Shown: one piece after another, positions 27,914 through 37,766 of the stretch
Position numbering within the stretch: position 1 is the first letter of the stretch
Layout: the number at the start of each line of letters is the position of its first letter
Assembly (NCBI GenBank): GCA_025352825.1
Contig: JANXSG010000008.1
Location: 1-38,050 of the forward strand
Direction of reading: 5' to 3'
DNA: 38,050 bases
From: Chthonomonadaceae bacterium
GTDB lineage: Bacteria; Armatimonadota; Chthonomonadetes; Chthonomonadales; Chthonomonadaceae
Translations under genes and position numbers: made by a program
Notes under the pieces: generated by a model
Seen by the model: only the letters and a program-made list of their open reading frames with translations
Database searches by the model: none
What the model was told of the DNA's origin: nothing

Positions 27914-28071
27914 AAAAGCTACTTCTCCATAAAATGAGAGACTTCCTTCTTGATTCACTCTCATCCCCGGCCTGATGAGCGTTAGTAAAATGAAAAATCC
28001 CATTAGCATCAGAGCCATGAATGGCACGGGCTGAGAATTGTATTGCCAAAAATAATCTCCCACACATTGCC

Positions 28072-28141
28072 GGGCACTGAAGTACCCGTCTGGGAAGCCT
28101 GCGGCCAGCCGTCCTCCGGACGGGAATCGCGTCTGAAAGAC
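28072..28141. repeat. Triple-hairpin repeat, single copy
   Basis: Successive hairpins are GGGCAC-TGAA-GTACCC (28072-28087, one mismatch), GCC-TGC-GGC (28097-28105) and CCGTCC-TCC-GGACGG (28109-28123), then GTCT-GAA-AGAC (28131-28141). The second and third align base for base with the repeat pair at 36151-36293, with paired substitutions that keep the stems. It lies between the DUF58 and GNAT genes, both minus strand. Confidence 0.6.
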
Positions 28142-33863: not shown

Positions 33864-35507
33864 TTACTTAGAAGATTTGTTCGCTTCATCCGGTGATTTT
33901 TCTCTAGGAGTGAATTGGATGGTCGCTGTCTGATTTTCACTCTCCAGTTCATATTCAAGACCTGCTGCTCCAAACAGAAGATGCAGCGTGTCACCGGCCA
34001 TTCCCTGCATTATGCCAGGTTCAACCAGATTCTCGGGGTCTGTGTATGTCGCTCGTATCGGACCGTTTACCAATATCTGCTGGTCAGCCACTCCATTGGT
34101 ATATACAGCGCTCTCCGCTGTACCAACAACCGTCTTTTTAACTCCAGGCGGTGGTGGCAGCTGAGTTACCCTAAATCGGACGTGCGAGACAGCATTGGCA
34201 TGTTCTATCGAATTATCTTCAGCCAGTACTACCGTTATCTTCGATGCCTGCAACTGAGTAGTGGAACTGTGATCCACTAATTCCGAAAGTAATGTGGAAT
34301 TTGCGCCCACAAGCTCCGCCTCTACTCCAGGAGTGAACACACCACTCGAAAAATTTGAAATCGTTAGAGTGGAAGGGACTATCGGCTTCTGTGGTTTCTG
34401 ATCAGCATTACTGCCGATCTCAGGTTTACGAGGCTTGGCGGGTATCGGGTCTACCACTATGCGATTTACCGCCGGTTCCCCCTCCATCCGGTATGTTTCT
34501 AAATCTCCAAATGTGGCAAAGATAACTTCAGAAGTAAGACGGGCAGGTGTGCGCAGCGTTTCGGGTGATGTCAGCACAGCACTTACAGCGTAATGAAGAT
34601 TCAGCTTATGTTCCAGGAAATTATACTCTGAAGTTCCACACTTAACATCGACTATCTCCTTATCACCACTCTTAGAATTCCGAACCAGGCCGAGTTTTAC
34701 ACTACCTGAAGCGGTTGACTTGGAGATTGTGTCGCCATCTCCATGTAACTCAACCCCAATATTTGATGCTTGCACCGAAAAATAACTATGATCTGAAGAC
34801 TGAGTTATTTCAATCCTTGAACGATCTCCTTGAATGCTGGCTTTGTCTCCCAAAATCAACGTTCCTGCATCGAATGCCCGAAGATAAACTTCACTGGAAC
34901 CGTTTTTGTTCACACTAGTTTTCGTATTTCCCGGAGGCGTTTTAAAGTGAATACTGCTGGTGCCAGCGTCTCCTGCCATATGATAGACTGTCTGCTCATT
35001 CGACATGTCCACTATAAAACTATCCGACTCCAGCACCCCAGCTCCTTCAATTTTTGCAGAATCGAGAATGGAAAGATGTACTCGCTCCTTGAGGTGGAAC
35101 AGCTGTGAAGACCGGGTATAGCTGCCTGCGCCGGATGTTCCATCGAGAATGCGTGCTCCTCCATCATGCACTTTCTGTACAACATGAAAATGAAGGTTCC
35201 CTTTGAATATCGCTTCTATGTCCTTCTTTTGCTTTTGTATACTGATCTGGTTGGCATGGAATATAATAATCGAACGTGACTTTTTATCTGGAACTTCGAT
35301 AGTGGTTTTTGAACCTGAGAGAACTACCCCCGATAAGTCCGCTTTACCTCGTGATGTATCGAAATCGTAGATCTTTATATCCCCGAACTGAGAGATCTTC
35401 CTCTCTTTATTTGGGGATGTCTGACCATGGGCAACAGATGCTATCATGGTATTAAAAGCAATGCATAAAAATATTGAGGATAGCACCGGGGCGATATGTT
35501 GTCGCAT
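33864..35507 (-). CDS. OstA/LptA-like periplasmic LPS-transport protein
   Basis: The 547-residue product has a signal peptide (hydrophobic residues about 5-28, cleavage near VAHGQT). Long beta-rich sequence follows, with an LptA/OstA-like opening (IKIYDFDTSRGKADLSGVVL) and recurrent strands. The size exceeds LptA (about 180), so it may combine two or more OstA-type beta-jellyroll segments. It overlaps the upstream LptC-like stop by one base and precedes lptB, as in other lpt operons. Whether it acts as the bridge itself or a periplasmic chaperone is unclear. Confidence 0.8.
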   Translation of the reverse strand: MRQHIAPVLSSIFLCIAFNTMIASVAHGQTSPNKERKISQFGDIKIYDFDTSRGKADLSGVVLSGSKTTIEVPDKKSRSIIIFHANQISIQKQKKDIEAIFKGNLHFHVVQKVHDGGARILDGTSGAGSYTRSSQLFHLKERVHLSILDSAKIEGAGVLESDSFIVDMSNEQTVYHMAGDAGTSSIHFKTPPGNTKTSVNKNGSSEVYLRAFDAGTLILGDKASIQGDRSRIEITQSSDHSYFSVQASNIGVELHGDGDTISKSTASGSVKLGLVRNSKSGDKEIVDVKCGTSEYNFLEHKLNLHYAVSAVLTSPETLRTPARLTSEVIFATFGDLETYRMEGEPAVNRIVVDPIPAKPRKPEIGSNADQKPQKPIVPSTLTISNFSSGVFTPGVEAELVGANSTLLSELVDHSSTTQLQASKITVVLAEDNSIEHANAVSHVRFRVTQLPPPPGVKKTVVGTAESAVYTNGVADQQILVNGPIRATYTDPENLVEPGIMQGMAGDTLHLLFGAAGLEYELESENQTATIQFTPREKSPDEANKSSK

Positions 35508-36286
35508 TATTTGATCTCAAACTCCTTAAGCCCAAGGTCGAAGGTGATGGTACCCCCTTCGTGAGTAAATGCGGCTCCGATTTTGGGGTGCCGAACGACT
35601 CTGGCGTTTCCTTCCGCAACGATCTTGTGTGAATCGGTATCCCATGTGATCTTATCAGCAGTGACCACAGTATCCGGGGGGCTGGTAATTGATTTTACTT
35701 TTACTCTGCCTGTACCGATGATTACCTTATCGTGCTGGTCGGCATCCATTTGATCAGCATAGATAATGGCTGACTGCCTGCCATCTTGAAAAAGGCGAGC
35801 ATGAACATCGTTCAACTGAATAACGACATTATCGTCTTCATCGGCCATCGATCCTGTATTGGACTCCGCGTATAGTACCGGAATAGGGGATCCTGCAGGA
35901 TGATTAGGATCGCGCTTCCGCCAGCGGATTTTCCATCCCTTACCAGTAATGGCGCCAGGGCGTGCCGCTTTCGCTTCTTCCGCATCGACGGGTTTCTTTT
36001 TGGGCTGAATGGGTTTTGAATTTGAAGCGCATCCAGACGTTAACCAGACAATTCCGAGCAGCAGTAATACTATCCCAGAACTGTATCGTGGCGTTAATAC
36101 CTTTGCAGTGTTATTGCATTCAGCAAGAACGCAATATCTGATGATTTGTGCGACGGAATGAATTCCTTCGCTTGGTAGCCTGTGGCTGAGTGTCCTTCGG
36201 ACACGAGCATACATACTTGCTGGATTGACACTGCGTATCGTGTGCGAAGCACACTCGGCGGAACGCCACCTATCGAAGAAATTCAT
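35507..36286 (-). CDS. LptC-like lipoprotein with repeat-derived N-terminus
   Basis: The 259-residue product has a hydrophobic stretch and possible lipobox ending LTSGC (Cys86), then an LptC/OstA-like beta-rich domain (about residues 115-259). The first 45 codons are the complement of the inverted triple-hairpin repeat at 36151-36293, whose outer arm contains the ATG at 36286. An inner ATG at 36214 is also within the repeat. No ATG, GTG or TTG lies between the repeat and the lipobox, so translation must begin inside it unless a rare codon is used. Confidence 0.75.
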   Translation of the reverse strand: MNFFDRWRSAECASHTIRSVNPASMYARVRRTLSHRLPSEGIHSVAQIIRYCVLAECNNTAKVLTPRYSSGIVLLLLGIVWLTSGCASNSKPIQPKKKPVDAEEAKAARPGAITGKGWKIRWRKRDPNHPAGSPIPVLYAESNTGSMADEDDNVVIQLNDVHARLFQDGRQSAIIYADQMDADQHDKVIIGTGRVKVKSITSPPDTVVTADKITWDTDSHKIVAEGNARVVRHPKIGAAFTHEGGTITFDLGLKEFEIK

Positions 36287-36293
36287 TTCGTCG
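36151..36293. repeat. Inverted pair of triple-hairpin repeats (BIME-like)
   Basis: Two inverted copies face each other. The left one has GGAAT-GA-ATTCC (36155-36166), AGCC-TGT-GGCT (36177-36187) and GTGTCC-TTC-GGACAC (36190-36204). The right one, on the complementary strand, has GTGTGC/GCACAC (36240-36254), GGCG/CGCC (36257-36267) and GAAAT/ATTTC (36278-36289). The outer 20 bp match at 18 positions. Differences fall in pairs that preserve the stems. The arrangement recalls bacterial REP/BIME elements. It overlaps the 5' end of the LptC-like gene. Confidence 0.7.
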
Positions 36294-36313
36294 AGTCAGT
36301 GTATCTTAACTTA

Positions 36314-36407
36314 ACCCTCACCCCCCATCCCCCTCTCCCAAAAACAGGATAGGGGAGGCTAATATATTCGATGTATGCATCCGTGATGAGTCGTACCCTC
36401 ACCCCCT
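36314..36407. repeat. CCTCACCCC-type repeat, second locus
   Basis: CCCTCACCCCCCATCCCCCT at 36315 and following, then CTCTCCCAAAAACAGGATAGGGG, is nearly identical to the arm at 26022-26062. A fragment (CCCTCACCCCCTGCG) recurs near 36397. The fucosidase stop codon lies within this fragment. It separates the fucosidase from the LptC-like gene and may terminate transcription. Confidence 0.65.
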
Positions 36408-37736
36408 GCGCATTTTTGCAATGCGGACTACTGTGTTGGTACCGTAAGGATATCCTGTGGTATCCAGAGTGAGTTGTGCAGAGCTATTATCATATTCCGA
36501 ACTGAGCTGCTGGCCGTTATCCAGCCAGATTGCTGAGCCATACTTCTGATCTACCCCTTTGAATATGCGCTTGCCGGCGCCGCGTGATGCGGTTACTGCT
36601 CGGGTATCACTGACTGCAGTCAACTGGAATATGAAAAGATAGAGATCGCCATTCAGTTCCAGAGCAAAGTCGTCGCCTTCGCCCACAATAGAAGTCGGTC
36701 TCCCCTGGTAGATCGGGCCCGCATCTCCACCGGTGAGACGTATCCAATCGCCCACTTTGTGAAGCGCTGCTCCCTCATATTCCGGGATGCCGCCGGTGGC
36801 GGTCGGTCCGAAGTTCATGAGAAGATTTGCGCCTGCACGCCGCGCATAACAGAGTTCCTCGATGACATGAGCCGGCGAAAGATAGTTGAAATCTTTTGCA
36901 GCAGTCCCCCAGTGGAAATTGAGAGTGTGGCACATCTCACCTACCACATACTTCGGATGCCCTCGCCGATCCAGCGCAATAGGGCGCCCTCGCTCGAATG
37001 TCACGACATCGATCTCCGGGTTACCCAGCTTACCACCCGCTCCGATACCGGTATTATTGATGATGAGCGCCTCCGGCTGATGTTTACGAATGACGCCGTA
37101 GAGCTTATCCTCCTGCCAGTCCGCGTTCGGTTTGCTCCAGTTCCCATCGAACCAAAGCCCGCCAATCTTTCCATAGTGTGTGCAGAGTATCTCGACGCTG
37201 TCTCTCAGATATTGTAGATAGGCAGGGAAATCGGAATTGAAACGTGCATCATTCCAATCCAGTGTCGTGTGATAGAAGACAGGCATAATACCTTCTGCAC
37301 GGCAGCCGTCCGCAAAGTCTTTGATGAGATCTCGCCCGCAGGGAGTGTGCATCACATCCAGGGTTGAGAGGCCGCGGGTATCGTACAGGCTGAAGCCTTC
37401 GTGGTGCCGCGAGGTGAGGGTGATGTATTTTGCGCCTGCCCGCTTCGCCAGCCGCGCAAAGTTTCTGCCATGGAAGTCCTTTGCGGTGAAGGTCTTCATC
37501 AGCTCGAGATATTTATCGCGTGGAATGCCTTGATTGTTCTCCGCCCACTCCCCAGCTTCCAACTGCGAGTAGAGTCCGAAGTGCATGAACAGCCCCATCC
37601 CCATGCGTTCGAACCGGGCGATTCTAGGCAATGGAGTGGGGAAATCGCTTATCTCAGCTAACGCAGTGCTATTCAGGCCACTTGCAGCCAATGCGGATAT
37701 CGCTGTTTTAGTTATCATTTCACGTCTTGTAATCAA
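36399..37736 (-). CDS. Alpha-L-fucosidase (GH29), Tat-exported
   Basis: The 445-residue product is a GH29-type alpha-L-fucosidase, removing fucose from glycans outside the cytoplasm. GMGLFMHFGLYS near the start, TLTSRHHEGFSLYDT and GGLWFDGNWSK with the probable nucleophile Asp197 are typical. TRREMITKTAISALAASG at the N-terminus is a twin-arginine signal. TTG 37736 is chosen because GGGAGG is 8 nt upstream and Tat signals start close to the Arg pair; the frame is open 8 codons further. The C-terminus ends in a repeat that supplies the stop, so it may have been altered. Confidence 0.9.
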   Translation of the reverse strand: MITRREMITKTAISALAASGLNSTALAEISDFPTPLPRIARFERMGMGLFMHFGLYSQLEAGEWAENNQGIPRDKYLELMKTFTAKDFHGRNFARLAKRAGAKYITLTSRHHEGFSLYDTRGLSTLDVMHTPCGRDLIKDFADGCRAEGIMPVFYHTTLDWNDARFNSDFPAYLQYLRDSVEILCTHYGKIGGLWFDGNWSKPNADWQEDKLYGVIRKHQPEALIINNTGIGAGGKLGNPEIDVVTFERGRPIALDRRGHPKYVVGEMCHTLNFHWGTAAKDFNYLSPAHVIEELCYARRAGANLLMNFGPTATGGIPEYEGAALHKVGDWIRLTGGDAGPIYQGRPTSIVGEGDDFALELNGDLYLFIFQLTAVSDTRAVTASRGAGKRIFKGVDQKYGSAIWLDNGQQLSSEYDNSSAQLTLDTTGYPYGTNTVVRIAKMRRG

Positions 37737-37766
37737 AACCTCACCCTCCCTGAAAAGCAATTAATA

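Follow-up and report, generated by a model that had tools for sequence, protein, structure and literature searches.

The 145-base element at positions 36150–36294 is very probably a REPIN-like non-autonomous mobile element, the two arms of which would serve as recognition ends of a Y1 (HUH, IS200-type) transposase. The window, i.e. the whole stretch of 38,050 nucleotides that was analysed, is one whole contig (C65) of the 4.87-Mb genome of a Chthonomonadaceae bacterium, referred to here as the host (298 contigs, 95% complete). The architecture of the arms, the covariation of their stems, their convergent pairing, sharp outer boundaries and dispersal, and the presence of Y1 genes flanked by such arms were observed directly.

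Each arm of the element consists of 55 bases and includes three hairpins in the same order, and the two arms are inverted with respect to one another. They belong to a repeat family designated family I. The features of the element and its flanks are as follows, scores being those obtained with R1, a covariance model built from 45 distinct host arms of family I.

36090–36149, + strand: left flank, outside the element core and akin to a module, TTAGTACCTTTGAAGTTAACTTGCGTTC..., found ahead of certain other copies (L057, L059); from flank comparison
36150–36204, + strand: left arm, family I, with three hairpins; from the sequence and an R1 match of 77.8 bits, E 3.3e-15
36150–36171, + strand: left-arm hairpin 1, with a C.T mismatch in the stem; from the sequence
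36177–36187, + strand: left-arm hairpin 2; from the sequence
36190–36204, + strand: left-arm hairpin 3; from the sequence
36205–36239, no strand: spacer of 35 bases separating the arms; from the sequence
36240–36294, − strand: right arm, family I, inverted; R1 match of 83.6 bits, E 1.6e-16
36240–36254, − strand: right-arm hairpin 3; from the R1 match
36257–36267, − strand: right-arm hairpin 2; from the R1 match
36273–36294, − strand: right-arm hairpin 1; from the R1 match
36305–36317, − strand: right-flank remnant resembling the type B outer inverted repeat GCGTTAGGTTAAG, without a matching left partner; from flank comparison

An earlier, sequence-only reading had described two inverted three-hairpin copies that differ by paired substitutions, and this was borne out at 36150–36204 (+) and 36240–36294 (−). 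The hairpin 1 stem is GGAAT/ATTCC in the left arm and GAAAT/ATTTC in the right arm, and the hairpin 3 stems are GTGTCC/GGACAC and GTGTGC/GCACAC, respectively. No gene is present inside the 145 bases, where an IS200/IS605 element would have its Y1 gene, and this copy has neither the matching pair of outer repeats nor an obvious target duplication by which a MITE would be recognised.

The element is apparently intergenic, and the neighbouring genes are on the minus strand. One of them is an alpha-L-fucosidase gene (36399–37760). The other is a probable lipoprotein gene, listed as an open reading frame at 35507–36286, the true start of which probably lies inside that frame because a lipobox-like LTSGC comes well past the repeat. 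Repeats of the CCCTCACCCCC type at 36314–36325 and 36395–36406 belong to a further host repeat (CCCTCACCCCCC...CTCTCCCAAAAACAGGAGAGGGGG), which is often found beside family I copies.

Covarying hairpins located between same-strand genes, as in the window, would also be compatible with transcribed structured RNAs, such as small RNAs, mRNA stabilisers or terminators, that are kept for their function; structured RNAs had been named as the alternative in the sequence-only reading. However, no Rfam match was obtained in the window, and sequence analysis together with Rfam revealed no evidence of a functional RNA. The inverted pairing of the arms and their location on both sides of Y1 genes fit transposon ends and would be unexpected for an RNA; hence this explanation is considered very unlikely.

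Family I is dispersed in the host genome, at a frequency far above chance. The 12-mer GNAGCCTGYGGC occurs 27 times, some of these occurrences being in unrelated sequence, as compared with 0 for the reversed control, and blastn with one complete copy as the query gave 86 matches, both orientations counted, which when fetched corresponded to about 40 places. The sequence-only reading had proposed a covariance-model scan of the genome, allowing that it might return only the copies already seen, without covariation, or a known repeat. The scan revealed a large dispersed family of 72 arms at E below 1e-6, with covarying stems (see below) and no match in Rfam. When neighbouring arms were grouped, 31 pairs were obtained, each of them convergent and with hairpin 1 on the outside, and 10 arms remained single, several of which are truncated or located at contig ends. 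An exact 21-mer of hairpin 1 had no match in public genome and viral collections, from which the host record itself is possibly absent.

Spacers in the paired arms are 11–76 bases long. Their lengths in the 31 pairs cluster at 11, 14, 21–22 and 32–35 bases; three of these four clusters are near whole DNA turns, and shared descent within subfamilies could also apply.

The outer boundaries of the arms were defined using nine host copies without a complete outer repeat of type A or type B (described below). In these copies, conservation does not extend past the base of hairpin 1 on either side, the commonest base accounting for ~0.8–1.0 of a column within hairpin 1 and mostly for 0.3–0.7 just outside. 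In L067, one of the nine, the right flank is degenerate and type A-like, and another left module is common to three of them.

Three family I copies (L036, L037 and L066/L260; contigs C261, C182 and C21) are interrupted at an identical point, after ...GCACACTCGG beside hairpin 3, and the inserted sequence begins GTGCGCC. The insert in C21 matches the group II intron model D1-D4-4 with E 1e-4, under the Rfam gathering score; a tRNA gene lies ~500 bases beyond this insert and no reverse transcriptase open reading frame was seen there. These sequence features suggest that a group II intron may target the family I repeat.

In the alignment of host arms, standard pairs account for 90.5% of the pair cells and both sides change in 9 of the 18 pairs, but this covariation is largely the difference between left and right arms. 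As such differences alone could inflate the signal, covariation was determined again for 63 distinct arms from the host, from the sister genome Chthonomonadaceae bacterium LF-bin-356 (G006), from two further genomes (G004 and G009), and from the Y1 locus of Armatimonadetes bacterium 0707_bin6 (G046). In this set, 13 of the 18 pairs change on both sides, in 155 cells as compared with 43 in shuffles. The covariation score is 0.389, as compared with a shuffled mean of 0.111 and with at most 0.090 for slid-partner structures; the alignment was fitted to the model, so that the figures favour its structure, and the controls use the identical alignment. The suggestion made from the first copies, that paired substitutions reflect a structure that is being kept, holds for the wider set.

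The same reading had assigned a third copy, at 28072, to the family of the two inverted arms. This copy corresponds to the following feature.

28069–28123, + strand: single arm of a related family, family II; R1 match of 24.5 bits, E 0.0022, and 84% identity over 57 bases to the flank of the host Y1 locus L071, E 1.2e-13

The order of the hairpins is the same as in the arms at 36150, and the hairpin 3 stem is CCGTCC/GGACGG. The arm is apparently intergenic, with an acetyltransferase gene on one side and a DUF58 gene on the other, both on the minus strand. Membership in family I was rejected on the R1 score (24.5 bits versus 78–84), and of the proposed three-copy family only the two inverted arms stand. 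The sequence places the 28072 arm, as a lone end, in a second, sister family, other copies of which were found at L009, L013, L016, L027 and L087.

A Y1 transposase with matching ends had also been proposed, and such genes were found for both families, for that of the 28072 arm in the host (L071) and for that of the window pair at L122 and L120, each from another genome of the Armatimonadota. The host genome has two Y1_Tnp genes. The first (L071:1402–1872) is flanked by inverted family II arms that are 85% alike, and in its HUH motif, PDRIHLF, arginine replaces the first histidine; hence the enzyme may be inactive. In the second (L072) the HUH motif is intact, and the 83-bp inverted flanks, which are 97.6% alike, are of a third type. 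Neither of the two Y1 genes found in the host carries family I arms; the absence of such a gene may be due to loss or to an assembly gap given the incomplete assembly in many contigs.

In G006, the only Y1 gene found is flanked by inverted arms of the family I type that score 46.4 and 36.4 bits against the model built only from host arms. Among the host loci fetched till then, the best blastn match of these flanking arms was the left arm of the window element. Across this genome 62 arms were detected at E 1e-3, and most of those examined are single and unpaired. G046 likewise includes a Y1 gene with arms of the family I type, scoring 41.0 and 35.9 bits, and the Y1 proteins of G006 and G046 share 52% identity, each being the best match of the other in a comparison of 22. 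Within the GTDB family, which comprises 17 genomes, R1 matches were confined to the host, G006, G004 and G009, and the other 13 gave none. G004 has 8 arms of the family I type and two Y1 genes, neither of which carries them, and G009 has 5 such arms and no Y1 gene was found in its 73% complete assembly. Hence, arms and enzyme do not go together in every genome. More widely, inverted hairpin-bearing flanks are present at 32 of the 46 Y1 loci examined, in Armatimonadota, Planctomycetes, Acidobacteria, Verrucomicrobia and other phyla, and Y1 relatives of L122 were found in Planctomycetes and Acidobacteria.

The arms are short and hairpins with a TTC loop are common, and the likeness of family I, family II and the Y1-flanking arms might thus be ascribed to convergence of short G+C-rich hairpins. 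However, the host-only model matches the Y1 flanks of G006 and G046 with E 3e-8 to 6e-6 in 171 kb, as compared with nothing in the 13 negative relatives, and the order of the hairpins, their spacing and the mismatch or bulge in the outer hairpin are all in common. Convergence is therefore regarded as highly improbable.

Many host copies of family I lie inside elements that end in GAGGTAATTGCAAAAGTC (type A) or GCGTTAGGTTAAG (type B). With two mismatches allowed, 217 occurrences of the type A end were counted in the host genome, as compared with 4 for the reversed control, and type A elements range from 49 to over 500 bp with varied cargo. A 4-bp target duplication was found in 8 of 28 type A end pairs, which include a few nested alternatives at one place, as compared with 0.65 expected; five of the eight elements bearing a duplication carry a family I pair. 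Seven DDE_Tnp_1 gene matches were listed as candidates for an insertion sequence with type A ends. The type A carriers look like DDE-type MITEs.

The GAGGTAATTGCAAAAGTC-ended family of the host (e.g. L083, L088, L092 and L095) amounts to ~100 elements by end count, and its cargo is highly variable, with REP arms or C-rich hairpins among it, or is lacking altogether (49 bp).

Family I might accordingly be seen as a structural module in ordinary MITEs that is spread by a DDE transposase recognising the outer repeats, its link to Y1 enzymes being ancestral only. The location of many copies between type A or type B repeats and the target duplications favour this explanation, as does the finding that the cognate Y1 gene was not detected in the host. 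Moreover, the type A ends appear to move independently because the same ends also bear other cargo or almost none. However, the nine copies without complete outer repeats have equally sharp boundaries (with the provisos given above for L067 and the three that share a left module), matching outer repeats are missing around the copy in the window, and G006 has ~60 arms and one Y1 gene. The explanation accounts for the spread of some copies and not for the origin of the arms, and as a full account it is rather unlikely. The sequences indicate that the terminal-inverted-repeat carriers probably took family I pairs along, such hitchhiking also spreading copies in the host.

The REPIN-like interpretation involves binding, cleavage, a route of movement and an enzyme that moved family I, all of which we infer. 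Y1 enzymes (TnpA_IS200/IS605 and TnpA_REP) are known to bind single-stranded DNA at imperfect hairpins and to cut close to them. Acting in the manner of TnpA_REP and IS200/IS605, a Y1 transposase would bind the mismatch-bearing outer hairpin of each arm in single-stranded DNA and then cut near the arms, and the unit would be moved or copied to a new intergenic site. Hairpin 1 is the likely recognition hairpin, since its mismatch or bulge is at the same position in the host, family II and G006 arms. Candidate movers of family I in the host are a cognate enzyme that has been lost or is not in the assembly, a different Y1 enzyme, or the MITE route. A combined history is possible and is put forward tentatively, namely that the arms arose as Y1 ends with a three-hairpin array and that copies later became cargo of unrelated terminal-repeat elements, one selfish repeat riding another after loss of the enzyme. 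In the host, one class of mobile repeat may thus be carried within another.

Among known systems, REPs and REPINs with their RAYT (TnpA_REP) enzymes, i.e. REPtrons, share several features with family I. In both, high-copy palindromic repeats (here, the 72 strong host arms) are dispersed and form inverted pairs (here, 31, all convergent), their stems covary, a hairpin has a stem mismatch, and a Y1 gene is flanked by the same repeat, as shown for family II at L071 in the host and for the family I type in G006 and G046. Unlike REPtrons, family I has three hairpins per arm and the GT[AG]G foot is not conserved; the foot of hairpin 2 is mostly GTAG or GTGG in host family I arms and mostly otherwise (GAAG, GAGG, AGGG or TTGA) in family II, G006, G004 and G009 arms. 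The Y1 enzymes score 72–90 bits with transpos_IS200 (cut-off 55) and only 29–37 bits with REP_Tyr_transpos (cut-off 80), and the aligned proteins have Q in the tyrosine motif (YIENQ, YVQNQ, YIYNQ or YILNQ) where TnpA_REP has N. Canonical GTAG REPs were ruled out on the foot, the number of hairpins per arm and the enzyme scores. The lead towards REP elements and TnpA_REP-like Y1 enzymes in the sequence-only reading is nevertheless supported by the dispersed covarying family and by the Y1 genes with matching ends.

IS200/IS605 elements likewise have a Y1 transposase and subterminal hairpins with a mismatch, whereas the ends described here are inverted copies of each other and are scattered without a gene. 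MITEs are similarly short and geneless, and many family I copies do lie within terminal-inverted-repeat elements, some with 4-bp target duplications; the core as seen in the window differs in having no outer repeat pair or obvious duplication.

No account of REPs in Armatimonadetes was found in a literature search. Of published systems, TIRtrons and class 3 TnpA_Y1 come nearest, and family I is likened to them by description. In the sections of Di Nocera et al. (2013, PMC3733652) that deal with them, TIRtrons (TIRYT) are Y1 genes between long inverted repeats, some of which are self-complementary; copies are dispersed as dimers or clusters, and the enzymes include a sharp group in Acidobacteria. 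The inverted-repeat flanks of Y1 genes and the dispersed copies are in common with family I; a covarying three-hairpin consensus and an occurrence in Armatimonadota did not turn up in those sections. Class 3 TnpA_Y1, from Planctomycetes and Acidobacteria, has Q in the Y motif, atypical flanking structures and a high copy number (PMC6006769). All three features recur here, the Q being compared by residue. As regards the 5' foot CnGA of that class, some right arms have CCGA and others do not. Family I itself is new, and its kind, the REPtron and TIRtron repeats, is known, with TIRtrons compared by description only. It extends Y1-associated repeats to Armatimonadota, and its arms with three covarying hairpins provide a testable case for how Y1 enzymes read their ends.
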